Source: Sphaerisporangium sp. TRM90804 (GTDB lineage Bacteria; Actinomycetota; Actinomycetes; Streptosporangiales; Streptosporangiaceae). Taken from it: a DNA stretch of 64,000 nt. The DNA lies in contig NZ_JARWAC010000030.1 in assembly GCF_029846175.1 (NCBI RefSeq), positions 124,001-188,000 of the forward strand. Direction: 5' to 3'. Shown piece after piece: positions 46,496 to 60,295 of this stretch. Both the position numbers and the translations under genes were made by a program. The notes under the pieces are model-generated. The model saw only the letters and a program-made list of their open reading frames with translations, did no database searches and was not told the DNA's origin. Position 1 is the stretch's first letter, and every line of letters begins with the position of its first letter.

Positions 46496-47647
46496 ATGAC
46501 GGAAATCCAGGCGGGCAGGGGGGCGGCCGTCGCGGCCGCCTCCGGGGATTCCCAGGTGCCCGCCATCGAGCTCGACGGCGTCGTCAAGGAGTACCAAGCG
46601 CAGGGTGAGGTCGTACAGGCGGTCAAGGGCGTCAGCCTCTCGATCGCCGAGGGCGAGTTCTTCTCCATGCTGGGGCCCTCCGGGTGCGGCAAGACCACCA
46701 CCATGCGGATGATCGCCGGGTTCGAGGATCCGTCGCGCGGCACCGTCCGGCTGCACGGGCAGGACGTCACGGACGTGCCGCCCAACAAGCGTGACGTCAA
46801 CATGGTCTTCCAGTCCTACGCGCTGTTCCCGCACATGAGCGTCTGGGAGAACGTCGCCTTCGGCCTGCGGCGGCGCCGCGTGCCCGCGCAGGAGATCAAG
46901 AACCGGGTCGGCGCGATACTGGAGATCGTCGATCTCACCGGCCGCGAGAAGCGGCGCCCGCGCGAGATGTCCGGCGGCCAGCAGCAGCGGGTGGCGCTCG
47001 CCCGCGCGCTGGTCAACAACCCGCGCGCCCTGCTGCTGGACGAGCCCCTCGGCGCGCTGGATCTCAAGCTGCGCCAGGCGATGCAGATGGAGCTCAAGCG
47101 CATCCAGCGCGAGGTCGGCATCACCTTCGTGTACGTGACCCACGACCAGAACGAGGCGCTCACCATGAGCGACCGCATCGCCGTCATGAACGACGGCCTG
47201 GTCGAGCAGCTCGCCGGTCCCCGGGAGATCTACGAGCGCCCCGCGACGACGTTCGTCGCGGGCTTCATCGGCACCTCCAACCTGCTGAGCGGGACGGCGG
47301 AGCGGGTGGACGGCGGCACGGCCCTGCTGCGCGTCGGCGAGCGGGGAAGGGTGCTGGTGCCGGTCGGGGACGACGTCCGGCAGGGCGGCGCGGTGGAGGT
47401 GACCGTGCGCCCGGAGAAGATCCGGATCTCCGTCGAGGAGCCCGCCGCGGACGTCAGCGCCGTGCCCGGGACGGTCGCCGAGGTCGTCTACCTCGGCACC
47501 TACAACAGTTATGCCGTGAACCTGGCCGGCGGCGCGGAGTTCACGGTGTTCGAGCAGAACGCCAGCAACAGTGACATCACGGCGGAGCGGGGTGCCTCCG
47601 TCTGGCTGTCGTGGCAGCCGCAGCACTCGTACGCGATAGGAAGTTGA
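46496..47647 (+). CDS. potA: Spermidine/putrescine ABC importer ATPase
   Basis: The 383-residue protein has Walker A GPSGCGKTTT, signature MSGGQQQRVALARAL, Walker B LLLDEPLGALD, H-loop YVTHDQNEAL and a C-terminal TOBE domain (VTVRPEKIRI). The order potA-potD-potB-potC with short gaps supports polyamine specificity. It lies 64 bp after the dehydrogenase gene. Confidence 0.92.
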   Translation: MTEIQAGRGAAVAAASGDSQVPAIELDGVVKEYQAQGEVVQAVKGVSLSIAEGEFFSMLGPSGCGKTTTMRMIAGFEDPSRGTVRLHGQDVTDVPPNKRDVNMVFQSYALFPHMSVWENVAFGLRRRRVPAQEIKNRVGAILEIVDLTGREKRRPREMSGGQQQRVALARALVNNPRALLLDEPLGALDLKLRQAMQMELKRIQREVGITFVYVTHDQNEALTMSDRIAVMNDGLVEQLAGPREIYERPATTFVAGFIGTSNLLSGTAERVDGGTALLRVGERGRVLVPVGDDVRQGGAVEVTVRPEKIRISVEEPAADVSAVPGTVAEVVYLGTYNSYAVNLAGGAEFTVFEQNASNSDITAERGASVWLSWQPQHSYAIGS

Positions 47648-47655
47648 CCCTTTTC

Positions 47656-48930
47656 ATGACCACCGCCCCTCGCGATCTCGCGTTCCTTCGCGGCCTCACC
47701 CAGGCCCGCACCCGCTCCGGCTCCGCCGCGACCCCGCTCACCCGCCGCGACGCCCTGCGCGTCGCGGGCCTGTCAGCCGCGGCCCTGGGCCTGGCCGCCT
47801 GCGGCGTGCAGGGCCGGGGCGCCGCGGCCCCGCCCCAGAAGGACGCCGTCGCCGGCTACTGGGCGGACAAGAAGCAGAACGGCACCCTGCGCTTCGCCAA
47901 CTGGCCGCTGTACATGGACAAGGACGGCAAGCGGTACGTCACCCTGGAGAGCTTCACCAAGGAGACCGGCATCCAGGTCGAGTACCAGGAGGCCATCCAG
48001 GACATGTCCACCTGGTTCGGCAAGATCCAGCCGCAGCTCGCCGCCGGGCAGGACATCGGCTACGACCTGATGGTCATGACCAACGGCATCCAGCTCGGCC
48101 GGGCGGTCGCGCTGGGCTACCTGGTGCCGCTGGACCACGCCAGGCTGCCGAACTTCGCCGCCAACGCGGGGGACACGTTCAAGAACCGCTCCTACGACAA
48201 GGGGAACGTGTACACGATCCCCTGGCAGTCGGGCGTGACCGGCATCGCGTACAACCCCAAGTACGTGGACGGCGAGGTCACGAGCATCCAGGAGCTGTGG
48301 AACCCGAAGTACAAGGGCAAGGTCGGCATGCTGCTGGACAACCAGGAGATCGCGAACTTCGGCCTGTTCGCGCTCGGCATCGACCCGGACAAGTCGGTCG
48401 AGGCGGACTGGCGTAAGGCGGGTCAGAAGCTTCAGGAGCAGCGTGACGCCGGAATCGTCCGCAAGTACTACGAGAACGACTACGTGGACGCGCTCGTCCG
48501 CGGCGACATCTGGATGTGCATGGCCTGGTCGGGCGACGTCTACCAGCAGATCGCCGAGGGCCAGGACCTGAAGTTCGTCGTCCCCCAGGAGGGGGCCACG
48601 ATCTGGACCGACAACATGTGCATCCCGAAGACCGCGCGGAACCCGGTCGACGCGCTGGCGATGATGGACTACTCATACAAGCCCGAGATCGCGGCCAACC
48701 TCGCCGAGTACATCAACTACATCACCCCGGTGCCCGGAACGCAGGCCCTGCTCAAGGACCGCGCCGCCAAGGCCTCCGGCGACGACAAGGAAGCGCTCGA
48801 CCTGCTGGCGGCCAGCCCGCTGATCTACCCCTCGGACGCCGACATGGCCAGGCTGCGGTCGTACAAGACGCTGACCTCCGCCGAGGAGAAGGTCTTCGAG
48901 GGCATCTTCCAGCCGATCACGCAAGGTTAG
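47656..48930 (+). CDS. potD: Polyamine ABC importer binding protein, Tat-type lipoprotein
   Basis: The ATG at MTTAPRDLAFLRG gives 424 residues, though its ribosome site is weak. The signal has twin Arg and a lipobox (LTRRDALRVAG then LGLAACG), implying Tat export followed by lipid anchoring. The mature part has GTLRFANWPLYMD, the N-terminal PotD/PotF strand, and GYDLMVMTN, VTGIAYNPKY and WMCMAWSGDVYQ, which line polyamine sites in the family. Specificity for putrescine or spermidine cannot be told by eye. Confidence 0.9.
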   Translation: MTTAPRDLAFLRGLTQARTRSGSAATPLTRRDALRVAGLSAAALGLAACGVQGRGAAAPPQKDAVAGYWADKKQNGTLRFANWPLYMDKDGKRYVTLESFTKETGIQVEYQEAIQDMSTWFGKIQPQLAAGQDIGYDLMVMTNGIQLGRAVALGYLVPLDHARLPNFAANAGDTFKNRSYDKGNVYTIPWQSGVTGIAYNPKYVDGEVTSIQELWNPKYKGKVGMLLDNQEIANFGLFALGIDPDKSVEADWRKAGQKLQEQRDAGIVRKYYENDYVDALVRGDIWMCMAWSGDVYQQIAEGQDLKFVVPQEGATIWTDNMCIPKTARNPVDALAMMDYSYKPEIAANLAEYINYITPVPGTQALLKDRAAKASGDDKEALDLLAASPLIYPSDADMARLRSYKTLTSAEEKVFEGIFQPITQG

Positions 48931-48932
48931 GC

Positions 48933-49787
48933 ATGAGACGCCGGATCGCGCCCTACCTCCTGGTCCTGCCCGGAGGCCTGTGGCTCATCGCCTTCCTGGT
49001 GGTGCCGCTCGTCTTCATGGCGTCGGTCTCCACCCAGGAGGGCGACATCGTCAACGGGTTCGCCCAGACCTTCCGGTTCGCCAACTTCGCCGACGCCCTG
49101 ACCGAGTACCGGACGCAGTTCCTGCGCTCGGCGGGCTACGGGCTGGCGGGCACGGTGCTGACCATCGCGCTGGCCTACCCGGTGGCGTACTGGATCGCGT
49201 TCAAGGCCGGCAGGCGCAAGTCGACGTACCTCCTGCTCGTGCTGCTGCCGTTCTTCGTGTCGTTCGTGCTGCGCACCGTCTCCTGGAAGTTCCTGCTGGC
49301 CGACGACGGCATCCTGCTGCAGCCGCTGAAGAGCGCCGGCCTGCTGGCGCAGGACTTCCACGTGCTGCAGACGACGGCCGCGGTGGTCGGCGGCCTCACC
49401 TACAACTACCTGCCGTTCATGGTGCTGCCGATCTACGTGGCGCTGGAGCGGGTGGACCCGCGCGTCGTGGAGGCGTCCCAGGACCTCTACGCCTCGCGCC
49501 TGACGTCGTTCACCAAGGTCGTGCTTCCGCTGTCGCTGCCCGGCGTGTTCGCGGGCGTGCTGATGACGTTCGTCCCGATGACGGCCGACTACGTCAACGC
49601 GGCCATCCTCGGCGGCCCCGCCAACACGATGATCGGCAACATCATCCAGACGGAGTACCTGGTGAACAACGACTACCCCGCCGGAGCGGCGCTGTCGTTC
49701 ACGCTCATGGCCGCCATGCTGATCGGCATCTTCGTCTACGCCAGGGCCCTGGGCACCGAGAACGTGCTTGAGGCGGCGGCGCGATGA
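48933..49787 (+). CDS. potB: Polyamine ABC importer permease (PotB-like)
   Basis: The 284-residue protein starts two bases after the potD stop. Six membrane segments are visible, beginning YLLVLPGGLWLIAFLVVPLVFM. The EAA loop is VVEASQDLYASRLTSFTKVVLPLSLPG. DADDGILL-like LLADDGILLQPL and TYNYLPFMVLPIYVALERVD are typical of PotB/PotH. Its stop overlaps the potC ATG. Confidence 0.9.
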   Translation: MRRRIAPYLLVLPGGLWLIAFLVVPLVFMASVSTQEGDIVNGFAQTFRFANFADALTEYRTQFLRSAGYGLAGTVLTIALAYPVAYWIAFKAGRRKSTYLLLVLLPFFVSFVLRTVSWKFLLADDGILLQPLKSAGLLAQDFHVLQTTAAVVGGLTYNYLPFMVLPIYVALERVDPRVVEASQDLYASRLTSFTKVVLPLSLPGVFAGVLMTFVPMTADYVNAAILGGPANTMIGNIIQTEYLVNNDYPAGAALSFTLMAAMLIGIFVYARALGTENVLEAAAR

Positions 49788-50638
49788 GCGGCCCGCTCAG
49801 CCCCGCGCTGCCCGCCGTGGCGGCCGGCGGACCGCGCACCGGCCCGGCGCGCCGTCCCCGCAAGCGCTGGGGCGACCGCCTGCTGTACGGCTACACCTGG
49901 CTCGTGCTGATCTGGCTCTTCGCGCCGATAGCCGTGATGATCGCGTTCGGCTTCAACGACACCCGGAGCAAGTCGAACGTGAGCTGGCAGGGCTTCACGT
50001 TCAAGTGGTGGGGCAGGCTCGGCGACTACCCCGACCTGACCCTCGCCGTGGTCAACTCCGTGACGATCGCCCTGCTCGCCACGCTGATCACCACCGTGCT
50101 CGGCACGCTGATGGGCGTCGCGCTCGGCCGGTACCGTTTCCGCGGCCAGGGCGCCACCAACCTGGTCATGTTCGCCGCCATCTCCTCGCCCGAGCTGGTC
50201 ATGGGCGCCTCGCTGCTGTCGCTGTTCGTCAGCCTGGGGGTGCAGACCGGGTACTACACGATCGTGATCGCGCACGTGCTGTTCGCGGTCTCGTTCGTCG
50301 CGGTCACCGTGCGGGCGCGCGTCGTCGGCCTGGACCCCTCGATCGAGGAGGCCGCGCGCGACCTCGGCGCCTCGACCTGGGTGACCTTCTGGCGGGTGAC
50401 GTTCCCGATGATCCTCCCGGGCGTCGTGTCCGGCGCGCTGCTGGCGTTCGCGCTGTCGATCGACGACTTCGTCATCACGCAGTTCACCAGCGGCCCCACC
50501 ATCACCTTCCCCCTGTGGATCTACGGCGCCGTCCGCATCGGCGTGCCGCCACAGGTCAACATCCTCGGCACGCTGATCTTCGCGGTCGGCGTGGCGATCG
50601 CCGTGATCAACACGGTGACCTCCCGGCGCCGCACCTGA
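49784..50638 (+). CDS. potC: Polyamine ABC importer permease (PotC-like)
   Basis: The 284-residue protein starts at an ATG overlapping potB (ATGA). After a basic Pro/Arg-rich N-terminus there are six membrane segments. PotC features: FNDTRSKSNVSWQGFTFKWW, the EAA loop IEEAARDLGASTWVTFWRVTFPMILPG, and SIDDFVITQFTSGP, which is diagnostic for PotC/PotI. Confidence 0.92.
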   Translation: MSGPLSPALPAVAAGGPRTGPARRPRKRWGDRLLYGYTWLVLIWLFAPIAVMIAFGFNDTRSKSNVSWQGFTFKWWGRLGDYPDLTLAVVNSVTIALLATLITTVLGTLMGVALGRYRFRGQGATNLVMFAAISSPELVMGASLLSLFVSLGVQTGYYTIVIAHVLFAVSFVAVTVRARVVGLDPSIEEAARDLGASTWVTFWRVTFPMILPGVVSGALLAFALSIDDFVITQFTSGPTITFPLWIYGAVRIGVPPQVNILGTLIFAVGVAIAVINTVTSRRRT

Positions 50639-50717
50639 GCCCGGGGACATGACCGGGCGGGGACGCGGCGCCCCGTCCGGAAAGCACAACAACGCGTTTC
50701 GTGAGGACGTGGAAATC

Positions 50718-52112
50718 GTGGATCCGCTGATAGCGCTGGCTGACGCGGAGCGTAAGCCGTACTGGTTGGACAGTCCGGACAATCCCGAGCCGTTACGCCG
50801 GCTCTTCGAACACACCACCGCCGACCTGGTCGTGGTCGGCGGCGGCTTCTCGGGGCTGTGGACGGCCCTGATCGCCAAGGAACGCGACCCCTCGCTCGAC
50901 GTCGTCCTGCTGGAGGGCAGGCGCGTCGGCTGGGCCGCGTCCGGGCGCAACGGCGGGTTCTGCGGGGCCAGCCTGACCCACGGGCTCGGCAACGGCCTGG
51001 CGCGCTGGCCGCGGGAGATCGCCGCCCTGGTGCGGATGGGCAGGGAGAACCTCGACGAGATCGAGCGGACCGTGGCCCGCCACGGCATCGACTGCGGGTT
51101 CGAGCGCACCGGCGAGCTGCACGTGGCCACCGAGCCCTGGCAGCTCGGCGCCATGGCCGGGGAGGCCGACATCGCACGCGAGCTGGACATGGACGTCCGG
51201 CTGCTGGACGCCGGGCAGGTGCGCGCCGAGGTCGGCTCGCCCACCTACGCCGGCGGCGTGTGGGACCGCGACGGCTGCGCGATGATCGACCCCGCCCGGC
51301 TCGCCTGGGGCCTGCGCGACGCCTGCCTGTCGGCGGGCGTCCGGGTGTACGAGCGCACCCCGGTGCGCTCGATCCGCGACGACGGGACGGCCCTGCACCT
51401 GTCCACCCCGCACGCCGACGTGCGCGCGGCCAAGGTCGCCCTCGGCACGGGCGTGTTCCCGCCGCTGCTCGGACGGCTCAGGAGCTTCCTGGTGCCGGTC
51501 TACGACTACGCGCTGATGACCGAGCCGCTGAGCGCGGCCCAGCTCGGCGCGGTCGGCTGGCGCAACCGGCAGGGCATCGGCGACGGCGCCAACCAGTTCC
51601 ACTACTACCGGCTGACCGAGGACAACCGCATCCTGTGGGGCGGCTACGACGCCGTCTACTACAACGGCGGCATCGTGCGGGAGGAGTACGACCAGAACGA
51701 CGCCACGTTCGCCAAGCTCGCCGAGCACTTCTTCACCACCTTCCCGCAGCTCGCCGACGTGCGCTTCACGCACAGGTGGGGCGGCGTGATCGACACGTGC
51801 AGCAGGTTCAGCGCGTTCTTCGGCACGGCGCACCACGGCCGGCTCGCCTACGCGGTGGGCTACACCGGGCTGGGCGTCGGCCCCACCCGGTTCGGGGCCA
51901 ACGTCATGCTCGACCTGCTCTCGGGCGAGCCGACCGAGCGCACCGAGCTGCGGATGGTGCGGGAGAAACCGGTGCCGTTCCCGCCCGAGCCGCTGCGTTC
52001 GGGGGTCATCCAGCTCACCCGCTGGTCGATCGCCCGCGCCGACGCCCAGCAGGGACGTCGCAACCTCTGGCTGCGCACGCTGGACCGCCTGGGGCTCGGT
52101 TTCGACTCCTGA
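50718..52112 (+). CDS. FAD-dependent amine oxidoreductase, PuuB/OrdL-like
   Basis: The GTG at MDPLIALADAERKPYWLDS gives 464 residues; an ATG 23 codons earlier is possible. FAD-binding motif DLVVVGGGFSGLWTALIA, GWAASGRNGGFCGASLTHG, LMTEPLSAAQ, GGYDAVYYNGG and a C-terminal GYTGLGVGPTRFGANVML fit the DAO family and the gamma-glutamylputrescine oxidase group. It would oxidise putrescine or gamma-glutamylputrescine to an aldehyde for the dehydrogenase at the head of the operon. It lies 79 bp after potC. Confidence 0.82.
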   Translation: MDPLIALADAERKPYWLDSPDNPEPLRRLFEHTTADLVVVGGGFSGLWTALIAKERDPSLDVVLLEGRRVGWAASGRNGGFCGASLTHGLGNGLARWPREIAALVRMGRENLDEIERTVARHGIDCGFERTGELHVATEPWQLGAMAGEADIARELDMDVRLLDAGQVRAEVGSPTYAGGVWDRDGCAMIDPARLAWGLRDACLSAGVRVYERTPVRSIRDDGTALHLSTPHADVRAAKVALGTGVFPPLLGRLRSFLVPVYDYALMTEPLSAAQLGAVGWRNRQGIGDGANQFHYYRLTEDNRILWGGYDAVYYNGGIVREEYDQNDATFAKLAEHFFTTFPQLADVRFTHRWGGVIDTCSRFSAFFGTAHHGRLAYAVGYTGLGVGPTRFGANVMLDLLSGEPTERTELRMVREKPVPFPPEPLRSGVIQLTRWSIARADAQQGRRNLWLRTLDRLGLGFDS

Positions 52113-52274: not shown

Positions 52275-54827
52275 ATGACCAGTCTCGGGGAGTCGGTCGC
52301 CGTCGGCGTCGAGGAGGAGTTCCACGTCGTGGATCTCGAAACCCGCCATCTCGTCCCACGCGCGGGCAACCTGCTGAATCGGCTGCCGAACGAGCGCTTC
52401 ACCGAAGAGCTCCAGCGGTCGGTGGTGGAGTCCAACAGCCGCCCCTACGTGAGGCTGGAGGATCTCGGTCACGACCTGACGGCGCTGCGCCGCACGGTGA
52501 CCGAGGCCGCCGACGGTCTCGGCCTGGGCATCGTGGCGGCGGGAACCGTGCCGCTGGTCGACCCGGCGGCGCTGGAGATCTCGCCGGACGCGCGCTACGA
52601 GCAGATGCTGGAGGACTACCAGCTACTCACCCGCGAGCAGCTCATCTGCGGCGCCCAGGTGCACGTGGACGTGTCCGACCGCGATCTCGCCGTCGAGGCC
52701 GCCCACCGCGTGGCGCCCTGGCTGCCGCCCCTGCTGGCGCTCAGCGCCAGCTCCCCGTACTGGTTCGGCGCCGACAGCGGCTACGCCAGCTACCGCACGC
52801 TGGTGTGGCAGCGCTGGCCCACCACCGGCCCGGTGCGCCGGTTCTCCTCGGCCGCCGAGTACGACCAGATGGTCGCCGACCTGGTGCGGTCCGGGGTGAT
52901 CAGCGACCCGGGGATGATCTACTTCGACGTGCGCCCGTCCCGGCACCTGCCGACGGTGGAGCTGCGCATGTGCGACGCCTGCCCGCGGGTGGAGGACGTC
53001 GTGCTGCTGGCCGGCATCTTCCGCGCCCTGGTCCTGCGCGAGCTGCACGACCTCGAAGCCGGTGTGCCGATGCAGGAGACCCGCACCGAGATGGTGCGGG
53101 CGGCGACCTGGCGCTCGGCACGTTCCGGGCTCGAAGGCATGCTCGTCGACCCGGTGGAGGGCACGGCCATGCCGGCGGGCGAGGTGATCCGGCGGATGCT
53201 GACGGGCCTGCGCCCCCAGCTGGAGGCGACCGGCGACTGGGAGCTGGTCACCCTGCTCACCGAGGCCGCGCTGGCCCGCGGCAGCTCCGCCGCCCGTCAG
53301 CGCAAGCTGATGCAGAGCGGCGGCACGTGCGTCGACGTCGTCGACATGCTGGTGGCCGAGACCCGCGCGGACGGCTGGCACGAGCTGTACGGCGGCCCGC
53401 TGCCCGGCCTGGAGACCACCCTGCTCAAGGGGTACGAGGTCGTGAAGGACGAGGCGGTCATCGAGGGCATCGTGCGCGAGCCCTACCAGCCGGTCTTCAC
53501 GGTGCTCGACCGGCTCGGCGCGGTGGAGCTGCGTGAGCGCGAGACCACGCGGAACGCCTACATGGACGACAACGGCATGGCGTTCCGCGTCGGCGACGGC
53601 GAGGACCAGGAGGCCACCCCCGAGCACGGCACCGGTCAGGACGGCCGGATGCCCGTCGACCTGGTGCCCCGGCTCGTCGCGGCCGACGACTGGGCGATGA
53701 TCGAGGAGGGGATGCCGCAGCGCGTCCGCGCCCTCGAAGCGTTCGTGCGCGACGTCTACGGCAGGCGCGAGGCCATCAGGGACGGCGTGGTGCCCGGCTG
53801 GGTCGTGGAGGAGTCCACCGGATTCCGGCCGACCGGCCTGCGCGTGCACGAGGGGTCGGTCAGGTGCTCGGTCGCCGGGCTCGACCTGGCCCGCGACGGC
53901 GCCGGCCGCTGGATGGTGCTGGAGGACAACCTTCGCGTCCCCTCCGGCATCGGCTACGCGGTCGCCAACCGGCGGCTCGCCGCCCACATCGTGCCCGAGC
54001 TCGACCGGTCGCACGTCCACGACCCGGAGGGCACGGCCGCCCTGCTGCGCGAGACCCTGCTCGCCGCCTCGCCCGTGGACGACCCGGCGCTCGCCGTGGT
54101 GACCTCCGGGCGCGGCGACCCCGCCTACTTCGAGCACAGCCTGCTGGCCGAGGAGATGGGCGTGCCGCTCGTCCTCCCGGCCGACCTCACCGTCGACGAC
54201 GGCGTCGTGCGCGCCGCCGGCCGCCGCGTCGACGTGCTGTACCGCAGGATCAACGAGGACGACCTGCTGGCCGCCCCGATCGGGAATGCCCTGCTGGCCG
54301 CGATGGAGCGCGGGACGCTCACGCTGGCCAACGCCCCCGGCAACGGCGTCGCCGACGACAAGAGCCTGTACCGGTACGTGCCCCAGCTCATCGACTACTA
54401 CCTGGGGGAACGCCCGTTGCTGGCCAACGTGCCCACCTATCTGTGCCGTGACGAGCACGACCGCGAGAACGTGCTCGACCGCCTGACCGAGCTGGTCGTC
54501 AAGCCCGTGGACGGGTTCGGCGGGCACGGGGTGGTGATCGGCCAGGACGCCTCCGCGATGGAGCTGGAGGAGCTGCGCAAGGAGATCCTCGCCGCCCCCG
54601 AGCGGTGGGTGGCGCAGGAGACCGTGGCGCTGTCCACCCACCCCACCTTCGACGGCGACCGCATGCGGCCGCACGTGATCGACCTGCGGGCCTTCGTCCT
54701 CCTGGGACGAGAGGGCGTCGTGCCGCGGGCCGCGCTGACCCGGGTCGCGCCGCCCGACAGCATGATCGTGAACTCCTCCAAGGGCGGCGGCGCCAAGGAC
54801 ACCTGGCTGATGAAGGAGACGGCCTGA
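52275..54827 (+). CDS. Carboxylate-amine ligase (GCS2-like) fused to type-2 circularly permuted ATP-grasp
   Basis: The ATG at MTSLGESVAVGVEEEFHVVD follows AGGATGAGGG and gives 850 residues. Residues 8-370 are a glutamate-cysteine-ligase-2/YbdK domain (GVEEEFHVVD, ICGAQVHVDVSD, YFDVRPSRHLPTVELRMCD). Residues 430-840 are a CP-ATP-grasp type 2 domain (WVVEESTGFRPTGLRVHEG, VLEDNLRVPSGIGYA, DVLYRRINEDDL, VKPVDGFGGHGVVIG, HVIDLRAFVLLG). Both domains form amide bonds with ATP, so one chain may make two such bonds or a capped dipeptide. The stop overlaps the amidotransferase ATG (TGATG). Product unknown. Confidence 0.85.
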   Translation: MTSLGESVAVGVEEEFHVVDLETRHLVPRAGNLLNRLPNERFTEELQRSVVESNSRPYVRLEDLGHDLTALRRTVTEAADGLGLGIVAAGTVPLVDPAALEISPDARYEQMLEDYQLLTREQLICGAQVHVDVSDRDLAVEAAHRVAPWLPPLLALSASSPYWFGADSGYASYRTLVWQRWPTTGPVRRFSSAAEYDQMVADLVRSGVISDPGMIYFDVRPSRHLPTVELRMCDACPRVEDVVLLAGIFRALVLRELHDLEAGVPMQETRTEMVRAATWRSARSGLEGMLVDPVEGTAMPAGEVIRRMLTGLRPQLEATGDWELVTLLTEAALARGSSAARQRKLMQSGGTCVDVVDMLVAETRADGWHELYGGPLPGLETTLLKGYEVVKDEAVIEGIVREPYQPVFTVLDRLGAVELRERETTRNAYMDDNGMAFRVGDGEDQEATPEHGTGQDGRMPVDLVPRLVAADDWAMIEEGMPQRVRALEAFVRDVYGRREAIRDGVVPGWVVEESTGFRPTGLRVHEGSVRCSVAGLDLARDGAGRWMVLEDNLRVPSGIGYAVANRRLAAHIVPELDRSHVHDPEGTAALLRETLLAASPVDDPALAVVTSGRGDPAYFEHSLLAEEMGVPLVLPADLTVDDGVVRAAGRRVDVLYRRINEDDLLAAPIGNALLAAMERGTLTLANAPGNGVADDKSLYRYVPQLIDYYLGERPLLANVPTYLCRDEHDRENVLDRLTELVVKPVDGFGGHGVVIGQDASAMELEELRKEILAAPERWVAQETVALSTHPTFDGDRMRPHVIDLRAFVLLGREGVVPRAALTRVAPPDSMIVNSSKGGGAKDTWLMKETA

Positions 54828-56608
54828 TGTGCGGCCTGAGCGGCGAGATCCGCTTCGACGGGCAGGCGGCCGACGTCCCGGCCGTGGTGCGCATGACGGC
54901 GACCATGACCGACCGCGGGCCCGACGGCACGGGAACGTGGTCGATCGGCCCCGTCGCCCTGGGCCACCGGCGCCTGAGCATCATCGACCTGTCGGAGCGT
55001 GGCTCCCAGCCGATGGTGGACGCCGAGGCGGGCCTGGCCGGGGTCTTCAACGGCTGCCTGTACAACTACCGCGAGCTGCGCGAGGAGCTGGCCGCGGAGG
55101 GGTACCGCTTCTTCTCCACCTCCGACACCGAGGTGCTGCTGAAGGCCTACCGCCACTGGGGCGGGCGGTGCGTCGACCGCTTCAAGGGCATGTTCGCGTT
55201 CGCGGTCGCCGAGCGGGACACCGGCCGGCTCGTGCTCGGCCGCGACCGGCTCGGCATCAAGCCGCTGTACGTCACCCAGGACGCCCACCGGCTGCGGTTC
55301 GCCTCCACCCTGCCGGCGCTGCTCGCGGGCGGAGGCGTGCCGACCGACGTCGACCGCGTCGCGCTGCACCACTACATGACCTTCCACTCGGTGGTGCCCT
55401 CGCCGCGGACGATCCTGACCGGGGTGCGGAAGCTGCCGCCGGCGACCGTGCGCACCATCGAACCCGACGGCACGATCAGCGACGACCACTACTGGACGCC
55501 CGCCTTCTCCCGCGCCCAGGAGGCCGTGGGCATGGACGCCGCCGAATGGCGCGACGCCGTCCGGGAGACGCTGCGTGTCGCCGTACGGCGGCGCATGGTC
55601 GCCGACGTGCCCGTCGGCGTGCTGCTGTCGGGCGGGCTCGACTCCACCATGATCGTCGCGCTGCTCGCCGAGGAGGGCCAGCGGGATCTGGCGACGTTCA
55701 GCGTCGGGTTCCACGCGGCCGGCGGGGAGTCGGGCGACGAGTTCGCCTACTCCGACATGGTCGCCGCCCGGTTCGGCACCGACCACCACCGCATCATGGT
55801 CGACGACCAGCGGCTGCTGCCGTCCCTGGTCGACGCGGTGGCGGCGATGAGCGAACCCATGGTGAGCCACGACTGCGTGGCCTTCCACCTGCTGTCGCAG
55901 GAGGTCTCCAAGCACGTCAAGGTCGTCCAGTCGGGCCAGGGCGCCGACGAGGTGTTCGCGGGATACGACTGGTACCCGCCGCTGGCGGGGGTGCCGCGCG
56001 ACGACGCCGCCGAGGCGTACGCGAAGGTGTTCTTCGACCGGCCGCACGAGGATCTGTCGGAGTTCCTGGAGCCGGAGTTCCTGGTCGGCGAGGACGTCAG
56101 CGGCGCGTTCGTCCGGGCGCACATGGGCATGCTCGGAGCGGACACCGCGCTGGACGCCGCGCTGCGCCTGGACACCGGCGTCATGCTCGTCGACGACCCG
56201 GTCAAGCGGGTCGACAACATGACGATGGCCTTCGGGCTGGAGGCCCGCACGCCGTTCCTGGACCACGAGCTGGTCGAGCTGGCCGCCCGGTGCCCGCCGG
56301 AGCTGAAGCTCGCCTCCGGCGGCAAGGGCGTGCTCAAGGACGCGGCCCGCGGGCTGGTCCCCGACGAGGTGATCGACCGTCCGAAGGGGTACTTTCCGGT
56401 CCCGGCGATCCGGCACATCCACGGACCGTTCCTAGAATTGGTCCGGGACGCCCTCACCGGTCCCACCGCGCGCTCGCGTGGCCTGTTCCGCCCCGCCATG
56501 GTGGAGAAGCTGCTCGCCGCGCCCGACGACCACCGGACCACCCTCGGGGCCAACGCGCTGTGGCAACTTGGACTCCTCGAGTTGTGGCTGCAAGCGCAAG
56601 GAGTCTGA
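54827..56608 (+). CDS. asnO: AsnO-type class II glutamine amidotransferase, like NAGGN amidotransferase
   Basis: The 593-residue protein begins MCGLSGEIRFDG, where Cys2 is the glutaminase nucleophile. GHRRLSIIDLSERG and FNGCLYNYRELREEL complete that half. The synthase half has the PP-loop VLLSGGLDST and FHLLSQEVSKHVKVVQSGQGADEVFAGY (given here as FHLLSQEVSK and VVQSGQGADEVFAGY), then DDPVKRVDNMTMAFGLEAR. The run ALLAGGG, ALHHYMTFHSVVPSPRTIL and the end LWQLGLLELWLQAQG are like the enzyme amidating N-acetylglutaminylglutamine, rather than AsnB. It should amidate a carboxylate made by the coupled ligase. Confidence 0.85.
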   Translation: MCGLSGEIRFDGQAADVPAVVRMTATMTDRGPDGTGTWSIGPVALGHRRLSIIDLSERGSQPMVDAEAGLAGVFNGCLYNYRELREELAAEGYRFFSTSDTEVLLKAYRHWGGRCVDRFKGMFAFAVAERDTGRLVLGRDRLGIKPLYVTQDAHRLRFASTLPALLAGGGVPTDVDRVALHHYMTFHSVVPSPRTILTGVRKLPPATVRTIEPDGTISDDHYWTPAFSRAQEAVGMDAAEWRDAVRETLRVAVRRRMVADVPVGVLLSGGLDSTMIVALLAEEGQRDLATFSVGFHAAGGESGDEFAYSDMVAARFGTDHHRIMVDDQRLLPSLVDAVAAMSEPMVSHDCVAFHLLSQEVSKHVKVVQSGQGADEVFAGYDWYPPLAGVPRDDAAEAYAKVFFDRPHEDLSEFLEPEFLVGEDVSGAFVRAHMGMLGADTALDAALRLDTGVMLVDDPVKRVDNMTMAFGLEARTPFLDHELVELAARCPPELKLASGGKGVLKDAARGLVPDEVIDRPKGYFPVPAIRHIHGPFLELVRDALTGPTARSRGLFRPAMVEKLLAAPDDHRTTLGANALWQLGLLELWLQAQGV

Positions 56609-58440
56609 CCGTCGACCTCTCGTGGACCTGCCGGTTCCCCGCACTCTCGCCCGACGGCCGTGCCGTCGCGTTCGTCAGCGACCGCGACGGCGTGCCCCGC
56701 GTCTGGGTCCAGGACCTGCCCGAGCCGGGCGGGGCGCCGGCGACGCCCGGGCCCCCGCACGCCTCACCGCGGGCCGCGGCCGCGCGCGCTCCCGGCGCGC
56801 CACCGGCCCGGCCCGGCCACGCCCGGGTGATCGACACCGGCCCCGAGCCGGTCGACGACGTGCTGTGGTCGCCGGACGGCGCCTGGCTGGCCGTTCAGAT
56901 CTCGCCCGGCGGGGGCGAGCACACCCAGGTCTGGGCGGTGCGTCCCGACGGCACCGACCGCCGCCTGCTCGCCGGGCCGGAAGACCTGCCCGCCAAGGGC
57001 TCGGCGGTGTTCGTCAGGTGGACCGGCCGGGGCTCCATCCTCCTGGTCGCCGAGCTGGCACCCTCGGGCACCACCGAGGCCGTGCTGATCGACGCCGAGC
57101 TGGGCAACCGCGACACCATCGCCACCGGCCCGCTGATGTGGCCGAGCGCGGTGAGCCGCGACCACGGGCGCGTGCTGCTGCGCCACGGCTCGCGCGGCAA
57201 GCGTGAGATGGCGGTGGCCGACCTCCCCTTCGGCAGGGAACGGCCGCTGCTGCCGCCCACCACCGACATCGGGTCGCTGTCTCCGGACGGCGAGATCGCC
57301 TACGTCCGCTCCAACGCCGGGCGCGACCGCAGCGCGCTGATCGCCATGCCGGTCGGCGGGGCGCCGACGGTGCTCGCCGAGCGGCCGGACGCCGAGCTCG
57401 ACCGGTTCACCGTCAGCCTGGACGGCCGGGTGGCCCTGCTGGCCTGGAACGTGGCGGGGCGCTCGGAGCTGCAGCTGATCGACCTGCCCGGCGGCCAGAC
57501 CCGCGAGCTTCCCCCGCCGCCCGCCGCCGTGATCAGCTCCGTGCGCCTGTCGCCGGACGGCGCGCTGGCCGTGATGGCGGCCGAGTCGCCCGACACGCCC
57601 TCGTACGTGCTCCTGTGCGACCTGCGCACCGGGCGGTACCAGCGGGTGGCGGGCGACGATCCGCTGCCCGACGAGATCGTGGCCGAACTGGTGCGCTACC
57701 AGGCCAGGGACGGCCTGGAGCTCACCGCCTGGCTGTACCGGGCGGCGCCGTCGCCGTCCCCTTGCGTGATCTACCTGCACGGCGGCCCCGAGAGCCAGGA
57801 GCGGCCCACGTTCAACCCGCTCTTCCAGCGGCTCGTGGCGGCCGGCATCAGCGTCCTGGCGGCCAACGTGCGCGGCTCGTCCGGCTTCGGGCGCGCCTTC
57901 CTGGACGCCGACGACCACGCGCTGCGCTTCCACGCGATCGACGACGTCGCCGACTCCGTCGCCTACGCCGTGGGCGCCGGGGTCGCCGACCCCGCCAAGG
58001 TCGCCTGCATGGGGCGCTCGTACGGCGGCTACCTCACGCTGGCGGCCCTGGTGACCTACCCCGAGCTGTTCCGGGCCGGGGTCGACGTCTGCGGCATGGC
58101 CGACTTCGCCACCTTCTACGCCAACACCGAGCCGTGGATCGCCGCCGCGGCCGTCACCGAGTACGGCGACCCGGTGGCCGACCGCGACCTGCTGCGCGCG
58201 CTGTCGCCCATCCACTCCTTCGACCGGCTCACCGCGCCGCTGCTGGTCGTGCACGGCGCCCAGGACACCAACGTGCCGGTGTTCGAGGCCGAGCAGGTGG
58301 TGACCGCGGCGACCAGGCGCGGCATCCCCTGCCGCTACCTGCTGTTCGACGACGAGGGCCACGAGACGGTGCGCAAGGCCAACAAGATCGCCTTCATGCA
58401 GGCGGTGACCGACTGGCTCACCCGCTGGTTCGAGGACTGA
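56584..58440 (+). CDS. S9-family prolyl-oligopeptidase-type peptidase
   Basis: A GTG 25 nt inside the amidotransferase end gives 618 residues (MAASARSLTVDLSWTCRFP); an AAGGAG lies just after it, so the start is not certain. An N-terminal seven-bladed propeller shows repeated SPDGRAVAFVSD, SPDGAWLAVQIS and SPDGEIAYVRS. The C-terminal hydrolase has HGGPESQERP, Ser in GRSYGGYLT, Asp in HGAQDTNVPV and His in DEGHETVRK. Family members clip short, often blocked, peptides. In this operon it may recycle or trim the capped peptide product. Confidence 0.88.
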   Translation: MAASARSLTVDLSWTCRFPALSPDGRAVAFVSDRDGVPRVWVQDLPEPGGAPATPGPPHASPRAAAARAPGAPPARPGHARVIDTGPEPVDDVLWSPDGAWLAVQISPGGGEHTQVWAVRPDGTDRRLLAGPEDLPAKGSAVFVRWTGRGSILLVAELAPSGTTEAVLIDAELGNRDTIATGPLMWPSAVSRDHGRVLLRHGSRGKREMAVADLPFGRERPLLPPTTDIGSLSPDGEIAYVRSNAGRDRSALIAMPVGGAPTVLAERPDAELDRFTVSLDGRVALLAWNVAGRSELQLIDLPGGQTRELPPPPAAVISSVRLSPDGALAVMAAESPDTPSYVLLCDLRTGRYQRVAGDDPLPDEIVAELVRYQARDGLELTAWLYRAAPSPSPCVIYLHGGPESQERPTFNPLFQRLVAAGISVLAANVRGSSGFGRAFLDADDHALRFHAIDDVADSVAYAVGAGVADPAKVACMGRSYGGYLTLAALVTYPELFRAGVDVCGMADFATFYANTEPWIAAAAVTEYGDPVADRDLLRALSPIHSFDRLTAPLLVVHGAQDTNVPVFEAEQVVTAATRRGIPCRYLLFDDEGHETVRKANKIAFMQAVTDWLTRWFED

Positions 58441-58489: not shown

Positions 58490-59377
58490 ATGATCGAACA
58501 CGTCCGGTTCACCGCCGACGGCATCGCCCTGGCCGGTGACCTCAGAGTGCCGCAGGGGCCGGGGCCGCACCCGGCCCTGGTGTTCACCGGGCCCTTCACC
58601 GGGGTCAAGGAGCAGGTGACCGGCCTGTACGCCGAGCGGCTGGCCGCCGCCGGGTACGTGACGCTCGCCTTCGACCACCGCAACTTCGGCGCCTCCGGCG
58701 GCGAGCCGCGGCGGCACGAGGATCCCCAGGGCAAGCTGGCCGACCTGCGGGCCGCCGTGTCGTTCCTGCGCGGCCTGCCCGCGGTCGACCGCGAGCGCGT
58801 CGGCGCCGTCGGCATCTGCCTGGGCGGCGGGTACGCGTTGCGCTTCGCCGCCTTCGACCCCCGGGTCAAGGTCTTCGTGGGCATCGCCGGCGCCTACAAC
58901 AACCCGTACGCCATGCGGTCGGCCATGACGCCGGTCGGGTACGAGGGGGCGCTCTCGTCCTTCACCGACGTGCTGGAGCGGCAGGACCGCGGCGGCGACG
59001 TCGAGTACCTTCCTGCGGTGGCCGAGACCGGCGAGGCCGCGATGCCGGGGGACGAGCCGTTCGCCTACTACGGCACCGAACGGTCGGCCGCGCCGACCTG
59101 GGTCAACGAGGTCACCCGGGCGTCGGTGCGCGAGCTGGTCACCATGGACAACATGATGGGCGCCGACTTCCTGTCGCCCAAGCCCGGCCTGATCGTGCAC
59201 GGCCTCGCCGACCGCTTCTGCTCCCCGGAGGGCGCCGAGGAGGCGTACAAGCGCATGGACGGCCCCAAGAGGATCGCCTGGCTCGACGCCCGGCGGCACA
59301 TCGACCTCTACGACACCGAGCCGCACGTCACCCAGGCCGTCGAGGAGACCACCCGGTTCCTCGCCGACCACCTGTGA
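58490..59377 (+). CDS. Dienelactone-hydrolase-like alpha/beta hydrolase with Cys nucleophile
   Basis: The ATG gives 295 residues; GGGGG lies 12 nt upstream. The nucleophile elbow is GICLGGGYAL, so the nucleophile is Cys as in dienelactone hydrolases. Asp is probably in HGLADRFCSP and His in ARRHIDLYD. VFTGPFTGVKEQVTGLYAERLAAAGY (start VFTGPFTGVKEQ) and AFDHRNFGASGGEPR are typical of a large actinobacterial subgroup. It lies 49 bp after the peptidase gene. Substrate unknown. Confidence 0.8.
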   Translation: MIEHVRFTADGIALAGDLRVPQGPGPHPALVFTGPFTGVKEQVTGLYAERLAAAGYVTLAFDHRNFGASGGEPRRHEDPQGKLADLRAAVSFLRGLPAVDRERVGAVGICLGGGYALRFAAFDPRVKVFVGIAGAYNNPYAMRSAMTPVGYEGALSSFTDVLERQDRGGDVEYLPAVAETGEAAMPGDEPFAYYGTERSAAPTWVNEVTRASVRELVTMDNMMGADFLSPKPGLIVHGLADRFCSPEGAEEAYKRMDGPKRIAWLDARRHIDLYDTEPHVTQAVEETTRFLADHL

Positions 59378-59380
59378 CCG

Positions 59381-60295
59381 GTGTCCGTCCGCGAGCTCGT
59401 CGTCCTGGGCACGGGCAGCCAGGCGCCGACACGCGCCCGCAACCACAACGGGTACCTCCTGCGGTGGGACGGCGCCGGCCTGTTGTTCGACCCGGGTGAG
59501 GGCACCCAGCGGCAGATGATCCTGGCCGGGGTGGCCGCGAGCGACGTCACCCGCATCCTGGTCACCCACTTCCACGGCGACCACTGCCTCGGGCTGCCCG
59601 GCGTGATCCAGCGGCTGTCGCTCGACCGCGTGGCGCACCCGGTGCACGCCCACTTCCCTGCCGCCGGCGCCGAGTACTTCGCCCGGCTCCGGCACGCCAG
59701 CTCCTTCTACGAGACCGCGACGCTGGTGCCCGAGCCGGTGCGCGAGGCCGGAGTGATCGCCGAGGGCGGTTTCGGGCGCATCGAGGCGTACCCGCTCGAC
59801 CACCCCGTTCCGGCGTACGGGTACCGGCTGGTGGAGGCGGACGGACGCCGCATGCTGCCCGACCGCCTGCGCGCCCTCGGCATCTCCGGCCCGCGCGTCG
59901 GCGAGCTCCAGCGCGACGGCGCCGTCCGCGTCGGCGGCCGCGCGATCACAGTGGAGGAGGTCAGCCGCCCGCGCCCGGGCCAGCGGTTCGCGTTCGTCAT
60001 GGACACCCGCCTGTGCGACGCCGTGTACACCCTGGCCGACGGCGCCGACCTGCTGGTCATCGAATCCACCTTCCTGGACGAGGACGCCGGCCTCGCCCGC
60101 GAACACGGCCACCTCACCGCCGCCGAGGCCGGCCACGTGGCCGCCCGATGCGGCGTCCGCCACCTCGTGCTGACCCACTTCTCCCAGCGCTACCGCGACC
60201 CCGCCCCCTTCGAGGAGCAGGCCCGCCGCCACTTCCCCGGCCGCATCACCGTCGCCGAGGACCTGATGCGCGTCCCCGTCCCCCGCCACGGCTAG
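59381..60295 (+). CDS. rnz: Ribonuclease Z (tRNA 3' endonuclease), MBL fold
   Basis: The 304-residue protein starts at a GTG three bases after the previous stop. Zinc motif [34 protein letters not shown] at the start; [32 protein letters not shown] ([17 protein letters not shown]); and [10 protein letters not shown] at the end. The shape matches tRNase Z, which cuts the 3' trailer from tRNA precursors. Being next to a tRNA gene is probably chance. Confidence 0.88.

Follow-up and report, generated by a model that had tools for sequence, protein, structure and literature searches.

The closest described system to the locus treated here is the one that synthesizes the osmolyte N-acetylglutaminylglutamine amide (NAGGN). 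According to the available text of one study, the enzyme Ngg acetylates one glutamine and joins a second to it, AsnO converts the C-terminus to an amide, and the two genes are followed by one for a peptidase; at high osmolarity Pseudomonas aeruginosa grows poorly when asnO or ngg is mutated (PMC8070244). The canonical order, asnO, ngg and then an M42 peptidase gene, is seen in Azospirillum. On the Shinella plasmid pShin-06 (L180:6778-10779) the asnO-ngg pair is directly followed by a mechanosensitive channel gene, which fits an osmolyte role for the canonical system. Here we analyze a 64,000-nucleotide (nt) stretch of the genome of the actinomycete Sphaerisporangium sp. TRM90804 (contig NZ_JARWAC010000030.1, positions 124,001 to 188,000), hereafter the window, in which an AsnO gene (gene B) overlaps a preceding ligase-fusion gene (gene A) and a following S9 peptidase gene (gene C). 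The set is real and recurrent, a variation on the NAGGN system that probably yields another product, and no description of it was found in the available portions of the literature searched, NAGGN papers included. Judging from the genes, we lean towards a sister pathway to NAGGN osmolyte synthesis that would make a gamma-glutamyl (gamma-Glu)-capped, glutamine-containing peptide amide as a likely compatible solute.

The amidotransferase is what ties the locus to the NAGGN system. Gene B carries the Pfam domains GATase_7 and Asn_synthase and reaches 978 bits against TIGR03104, the model for N-acetylglutaminylglutamine amidotransferase (cut-off 570.1). Its 418.5 bits against the asparagine synthase model TIGR01536 exceed the cut-off of 267, which is the one point in favor of an ordinary asparagine synthetase with chance neighbors, but lie far under the TIGR03104 score. 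That explanation is rejected as very improbable: in the tree gene B falls inside an AsnO clade that also takes in the Ngg-linked AsnOs and is separate from six AsnB-like outgroups (support 100), the genome has other, lower-scoring AsnB-like genes of its own (325 bits or less), and AsnO accompanies every fusion of the gene A kind in the scan of named genomes described below. On the model score and the tree position, gene B is an AsnO of the NAGGN type and not AsnB.

Gene A occupies the place that Ngg has in the canonical locus. Its N-terminal half belongs to the YbdK/PRK13517-type GCS2 ligases, passing both the YbdK-family model TIGR02050 (284.7 bits, cut-off 176.4) and NF010041, a model named glutamate-cysteine ligase (372.3 bits, cut-off 332), and it matches YbdK (PDB 1r8g) by sequence; gene A differs from such ligases in its fusion to a circularly permuted (CP) ATP-grasp domain and in its tie to AsnO, and the further GCS2 proteins in genomes carrying the set are only about 30-44% alike. 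The CP-ATP-grasp match covers profile positions 1-374 of 374. This C-terminal half matches PDB 3n6x, a "putative glutathionylspermidine synthase", by sequence and has the motifs LEDNLR.PSG and GGG.KDTW in common with the CP_ATPgrasp_2 proteins, from which it differs in context, since members without GCS2 do not stand beside AsnO (see below), one actinobacterial lineage (that of locus L045) excepted. Of the three solved sequences that gene A matched, none spans both halves. A Pfam domain scan found no acetyltransferase domain in gene A, the protein scores well under the EgtA model (26 bits, cut-off 370.8), and the classic GshA and GshB models are absent among its high-scoring NCBIfam matches. 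By analogy, a gamma-Glu ligase domain and a second ligase domain in one protein recall the two-step ligations of glutathione and glutathionylspermidine; in the present set no GshA or GshB model is among the high scorers and an AsnO amidation would follow.

Gene C is a member of the Peptidase_S9 family (PF00326, 152 bits) with the motif GxSxGG present as GRSYGGY, and its best solved matches include the amino acyl peptidase PDB 5l8s and acylamino-acid-releasing enzymes. The initial annotation had described a GCS2-like ligase joined to a type 2 CP-ATP-grasp domain, an amidotransferase resembling that of NAGGN synthesis rather than AsnB, and a prolyl-oligopeptidase, and each of these assignments holds; its coordinates and both overlaps are exact (Table 1).

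Table 1. Coordinates within the window of the three-gene set, its domains and its overlaps (aa, amino acids).
Feature	Position	Strand	Description
Gene A	52275..54827	+	850 aa, ATG start; YbdK/GCS2-type carboxylate-amine (gamma-glutamyl) ligase fused to type 2 circularly permuted ATP-grasp ligase
GCS2 domain, gene A residues 10-286	52302..53132	+	Pfam PF04107, 193 bits
CP-ATP-grasp type 2 domain (CP_ATPgrasp_2), gene A residues 465-825	53667..54749	+	PF14403, 393 bits
TGATG stop-start overlap of genes A and B (1 nt)	54825..54829	+	
Gene B	54827..56608	+	593 aa, ATG start; AsnO-type class II amidotransferase (N-terminal nucleophile glutaminase and Asn-synthase domain)
Gene B codons 570-576 (RTTLGAN)	56534..56554	+	Stretch differing by linked ligase: Ngg (L/I570, mostly R or N at 574) versus GCS2/CP-ATP-grasp (polar 570, G574)
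Overlap of genes B and C (25 nt)	56584..56608	+	
Gene C	56584..58440	+	618 aa, GTG start; S9 prolyl-oligopeptidase/acylaminoacyl-peptidase-like hydrolase, hydrolase slot of the set

The window locus has in common with the NAGGN loci of Sinorhizobium meliloti and P. aeruginosa the AsnO family (TIGR03104) and the logic of a ligase, an amidotransferase and a peptidase around asnO. It differs in that Ngg, a GNAT domain joined to ATP-grasp, is replaced by the GCS2-CP-ATP-grasp fusion, in that the ligase gene precedes AsnO instead of following it as in Azospirillum, in the S9 peptidase that stands where the NAGGN locus has M42, and in two switched AsnO residues (R570 and G574). Ngg (TIGR03103) was not found anywhere in the genome of the window, which is 98.9% complete (best match 26 bits, cut-off 569). 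M42, looked for at the locus and not genome-wide, does not lie beside asnO, and its absence is a weak criterion, being seen also within the neighborhood DNA of 11 of the 21 Ngg-linked actinobacterial loci. Elsewhere Ngg exceeded its cut-off in all three Ngg-linked genomes tested, in none of ten genomes with other ligases and in neither of two genomes without AsnO, and it stayed under the cut-off in all 11 named genomes that have a locus of the GCS2 type. Among these 11, G417 matches the ATP-grasp half of the Ngg model in part, at 165 bits (cut-off 569), which tempers the otherwise neat absence. The window locus, having no Ngg, is thus not a NAGGN locus, while it works in a like manner.

The same arrangement recurs widely in Actinomycetota. 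Among 296 genomes drawn from the phylum, 31 carry an AsnO over the cut-off, at 897-1021 bits with the next best at 378, and all 31 neighborhoods were mapped for about 7 kilobases (kb) per side where the contig allowed. Ngg follows AsnO in 21 of them; in the other ten no Ngg was seen and GCS2, CP-ATP-grasp or both are present, as the fusion in two (the window and L059), as GCS2 alone in four that group with named Streptomyces loci, as a CP-ATP-grasp gene before AsnO in three, and as a GCS2 of another kind in one (L063). The three CP-ATP-grasp-first loci (L045, L046 and L050) form a separate actinobacterial lineage in which CP-ATP-grasp, AsnO and a DUF1028 protein are unfused; L046 and L050 have a divergent GCS2 gene further upstream, and in L046 the GCS2 and CP-ATP-grasp matches are in pieces. 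In the family of the window itself, Streptosporangiaceae, AsnO exceeds the cut-off in 24 of 120 genomes and Ngg occurs in none of these 24 neighborhoods. The ligase of gene A is fused in 17, represented by GCS2 alone in five and not adjoining in two, leaving a ligase next door in 22 of 24 loci and a hydrolase gene after AsnO in all 24. The remaining two (L088 and L089) were considered as cases of a missing ligase and dismissed, since both genomes (G382 and G407) carry the fusion elsewhere (L205:2211-5128 and L206:2166-5128); the co-occurrence beyond the window that the initial annotation proposed to look for is therefore well borne out. In G382 and G407 the distant fusion lies beside what reads as a small GNAT-like gene, near another that reads as encoding a trehalose-forming enzyme, and the GNAT-like gene might acetylate the product there.

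A scan of named genomes with 12 fused proteins, of which the best 80 of 589 loci were analyzed, gave a matching picture. AsnO is present in all 20 fused loci, directly adjacent in 18 and separated by intervening genes in two (L103 and L112, with opposite-strand genes between ligase and AsnO and, in L112, two short same-strand calls as well), and S9 is present in 19, the twentieth ending in AsnO. Four of seven GCS2-only loci have both AsnO and S9, whereas AsnO occurs in none of 53 CP-ATP-grasp-only loci within the locus DNA; the association of the fusion with AsnO has a Fisher p of 2e-18, uncorrected for relatedness. The fusion-bearing taxa include Sphaerisporangium, Actinoplanes, Micromonospora, Pseudonocardia, Mycobacterium, Williamsia, Subtercola, Glaciihabitans and Microbacterium. 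Even the 25-nt overlap of AsnO and S9 recurs, in L081, L093 and L099 (with predicted starts) and in annotated genes of Streptomyces fungicidicus. Since the order of ligase, AsnO and hydrolase recurs in other genera and families, the three-gene set goes far beyond what chance would give. L105, a contig that was binned as Nevskia (Pseudomonadota), holds the whole actinobacterial set, and its AsnO groups (95) with that of Mycobacterium L116, which points to mis-binning or transfer.

In Pseudomonadota, AsnO exceeds the cut-off in 24 of 200 genomes, and the 24 loci, one per genome, were examined with about 1.5 kb on most sides. Ngg lies downstream in 21 of them, L227 ends near a contig edge, and neither GCS2 nor S9 was found in any of the 24 within the DNA examined; in L214 a CP-ATP-grasp gene lies upstream on the opposite strand. 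A pseudomonadotal AsnO (L244:3342-7163, H570/K574) has no Ngg and stands between two genes that read like glycosyltransferases, where it perhaps amidates a surface sugar or peptide.

The genus Micromonospora holds both versions. Among 121 genomes of the genus of M. noduli, Ngg exceeds the cut-off in 84, and 21 carry the fusion, split into two abutting pieces in one of them and full-length in the other 20; 83 genomes have Ngg only, 20 the fusion only, one both and 17 neither. This exclusion (Fisher p 8e-12, kinship uncorrected) is imperfect, given the 17 genomes with neither system and the single exception, G517. In that genome there are two AsnOs, of which the one beside Ngg reads ELTPLHGN and the one beside the fusion RRTTLGSN; at position 570 each has the residue typical of its type. 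NAGGN was demonstrated by nuclear magnetic resonance (NMR) in Micromonospora provocatoris, where the accessible text also reports asnO and ngg (PMC8146288), and another paper, in the part available, calls NAGGN clusters conserved in Micromonospora (PMC11537254). The canonical locus can explain the NAGGN of M. provocatoris.

The AsnO proteins themselves divide along the same line. In a tree of 82 AsnOs and six AsnB-like outgroups, every AsnO partnered by S9 or an EgtC-like protein falls into a single clade of 55 (SH-aLRT 97), with no Ngg-linked row inside. The incomplete AsnOs of L051, L094 and L117 were left out of both the tree and the residue counts, and L204, with an AsnO identical to that of L058, was counted once. 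The AsnOs with EgtC-like partners form one group (98), those with CP-ATP-grasp and DUF1028 a separate clade (100), and the AsnO of L063 is a long, unsettled branch. GCS2-only AsnOs appear in two places, inside or beside the fused ones. As CP-ATP-grasp of the gene A kind is kept in none of the nine GCS2-only genomes, the domain was probably lost more than once on this sequence evidence. The AsnOs of L088 and L089 lie inside one GCS2-only group, yet their genomes keep the fusion elsewhere; a change at AsnO residues 573 and 575 that seemed to track the loss of CP-ATP-grasp was dropped, as these two have the fusion and show the GCS2-only pattern.

Position 570, in the C-terminal part of AsnO, emerged from a screen of every column in the first set and was then checked against further AsnOs from Micromonospora and Pseudomonadota. 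The residue is L or I in all 51 Ngg-linked AsnOs, which comprise the 23 of the first set, seven more distinct proteins from Micromonospora and 21 from Pseudomonadota. None of the 63 other actinobacterial AsnOs has L or I there: of the 59 in the first set, 54 have R, two have K and the rest have H, S or T, and the four further fusion-linked Micromonospora proteins all have R. Residue 574 is G in those 63, and R (18), H (2), G (2) or N (1) in the first 23 Ngg-linked proteins. The window AsnO, with R570 and G574, follows the non-Ngg pattern. Among pseudomonadotal AsnOs with no Ngg nearby, L235 has M570/Q574 and L236 H570/K574, and the contig-edge L227 has I570. The switch at position 570 suggests a different acceptor.

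The hydrolase slot adds a hint about the product. In the 24 loci of the window's family, 12 of the genes after AsnO encode S9 and the other 12 an EgtC-like amidohydrolase. In the three CP-ATP-grasp-first loci the slot is filled by DUF1028, which suggests that a DUF1028 protein can act as the hydrolase in a set of this type. The EgtC-like partners, two of which were scanned with NCBIfam, score 200-224 bits against the EgtC model (cut-off 218.65), 11 of the 12 falling below; all 12 genomes carry another EgtC over the cut-off away from AsnO. With a mean identity of 39% to six true EgtCs, the partner keeps C2, R88, N114, G115 and D137, which by comparison with class II amidotransferases we take to be catalytic and glutamate-binding residues, and has four fixed differences, including H113 to L. 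EgtC removes a gamma-Glu group. A gamma-Glu-forming ligase and a duplicated gamma-Glu-cleaving enzyme in one set are, from the sequences, the best single hint of a gamma-Glu cap. In the accessible text of one paper EgtA is described as a gamma-glutamylcysteine synthase, and EgtC goes by the name of glutamine amidohydrolase (PMC6154287). The likeness to ergothioneine synthesis ends with this divergent EgtC copy in the hydrolase slot of 12 relatives: gene A is not EgtA, the window has S9, and the true EgtC of its genome lies on another contig (C77). The ergothioneine pathway was rejected on the EgtA score and on that separate EgtC.

In the pathway that we infer, including the gamma-Glu linkage, the order of the steps, the identity of the amino acid X, the part played by the hydrolase and the osmotic role, gene A would replace the acetyltransferase/ATP-grasp synthetase Ngg. 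The GCS2 domain would activate the side-chain carboxylate of glutamate and couple it to an amino acid, giving gamma-Glu-X, and the CP-ATP-grasp domain would then extend the free carboxyl end, by analogy with the two ligations of glutathione. AsnO would transfer the amide nitrogen of glutamine to the C-terminal carboxyl of the capped peptide, as it does with N-acetyl-Gln-Gln, and gene C would hydrolyze the peptide, most likely recycling it when it is no longer needed; an EgtC-like gamma-Glu hydrolase or a DUF1028 protein would fill this place in relatives. The suggestion that both the first and the last step had changed agrees with the exchange of Ngg for GCS2(-CP-ATP-grasp) and of M42 for S9, EgtC-like or DUF1028 proteins. 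The further suggestion of a gamma-Glu or similar dipeptide amide fares less evenly: the EgtC-like paralogue and the AsnO residue switch favor the gamma-Glu part, which stays conditional, and the fused ligase may extend the chain to three residues, so that the product need not be a dipeptide. More tentatively, a large part of Actinomycetota may have swapped acetyl-capped NAGGN for a new class of gamma-Glu-capped peptide amides, built by two glutathione-like ligations and AsnO amidation; in some lineages the duplicated EgtC would remove the cap, either recycling the solute or deprotecting it, as in ergothioneine synthesis, to give a free peptide amide.

Several other products have to be weighed against a gamma-Glu-capped solute. 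A thiol pathway like that of glutathione amide, in which GCS2 would make gamma-Glu-Cys, CP-ATP-grasp would add a residue and AsnO would amidate, draws on the name of NF010041, on the resemblance of the CP-ATP-grasp half to a putative glutathionylspermidine synthase and on the thiol pathway in which the known form of the EgtC-like partner acts. We consider it unlikely, as the group that AsnO of this family amidates in NAGGN is a glutaminyl end, no constant place is held by any of the 28 largest neighbor clusters outside the set, 15 genomes searched already have an EgtC over the cut-off away from the locus, and the EgtA score of gene A is low. The same survey of neighbors cuts both ways for a specialized metabolite, such as a small bioactive peptide amide, or a protein or wall modification in place of a compatible solute. 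It brought out no stress gene as a constant neighbor, and sets of ligase, ATP-grasp and asparagine-synthase genes occur in peptide natural products too; two non-actinomycete AsnOs (L243 and L244) have none of the ligases searched for, one of them standing beside the glycosyltransferase-like genes. Yet those 28 clusters include no exporter, regulator or tailoring gene with a constant position either, and the set persists from genus to genus and takes the place of the osmolyte locus in Micromonospora, which leaves this explanation doubtful.

That the locus makes NAGGN itself through a non-orthologous replacement of Ngg is, in our judgment, rather improbable. It would account for the membership of gene B in the NAGGN AsnO family, and the genus from which NAGGN was reported by NMR (PMC8146288, in the text available) holds both kinds of locus. 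However, 84 of 121 Micromonospora genomes have canonical Ngg, and the same NMR paper, as far as its text was accessible, itself reports asnO and ngg (PMC8146288). Further, gene A is without the acetyltransferase domain, the AsnO 570/574 switch follows the kind of ligase, and G517 keeps both loci with distinct AsnOs, which would be needless for one product. GCS2 ligases are known to use glutamate and not an acyl donor, which also counts against an unchanged product.

The sister pathway that we prefer has its own difficulties, and the following observations weigh against it. The product and its osmotic role are predicted from the genes, and no osmotic-stress gene is a constant neighbor among the 28 largest clusters. 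To our knowledge YbdK-type enzymes have no settled physiological substrate, so gamma-Glu is deduced from the family; the hydrolase of the window is S9, so the EgtC argument comes from relatives; and the role suggested for residue 570 derives from aligned proteins. The absence of a CP-ATP-grasp of this kind from the nine GCS2-only genomes means that the domain is not needed everywhere and that the product may differ between lineages. Some loci lack an expected partner: L045 has CP-ATP-grasp, AsnO and DUF1028 with no GCS2 in the 7 kb upstream, and L068, on a plasmid of Streptomyces sp. NBC_01001, has AsnO and S9 with no GCS2 on that record, where a ligase, if any, must sit on another replicon. 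In Pseudomonadota, L235 and L236 have neither Ngg in longer stretches nor a gene A-type ligase, so that AsnO can stand without Ngg outside the actinomycetes too. Finally, the set is widespread in Actinomycetota, with many of its counts non-independent, the clade being mostly one lineage.

Around the set little is constant. Beyond ligase, AsnO and hydrolases, the most frequent of the 28 neighbor clusters covers 12 of 84 loci at scattered places, and a gene that reads as UspA-like lies near four loci. In the window, genes resembling the spermidine/putrescine ATP-binding cassette transporter PotA/D/B/C, followed by a DAO-family oxidoreductase gene, occupy positions 46496-52112 and end 162 nt before gene A; they are probably a polyamine uptake and catabolism operon. 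A gamma-Glu-polyamine product, which this operon and the likeness to glutathionylspermidine synthase had brought to mind, was dropped, as a DAO-like gene lies upstream only in the same-genus loci L073, L080 and L081 and other loci have other neighbors. Directly downstream, at 58490-60295, are genes for an alpha/beta hydrolase and ribonuclease Z, in an order that reads the same in L080 and L081.

If the proposed pathway is true, many actinomycetes, among them relatives of Streptomyces, Micromonospora, Pseudonocardia, Mycobacterium and Microbacterium, would make an unrecognized compatible solute or capped peptide amide, and the label "N-acetylglutaminylglutamine amidotransferase", as on the Streptomyces fungicidicus gene, would name the wrong product for this AsnO clade. 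An orphan ligase fusion and an EgtC paralogue would each gain a likely function, and Micromonospora would be a natural experiment within one genus, in which two versions of a pathway replace each other and can be told apart at one residue position.

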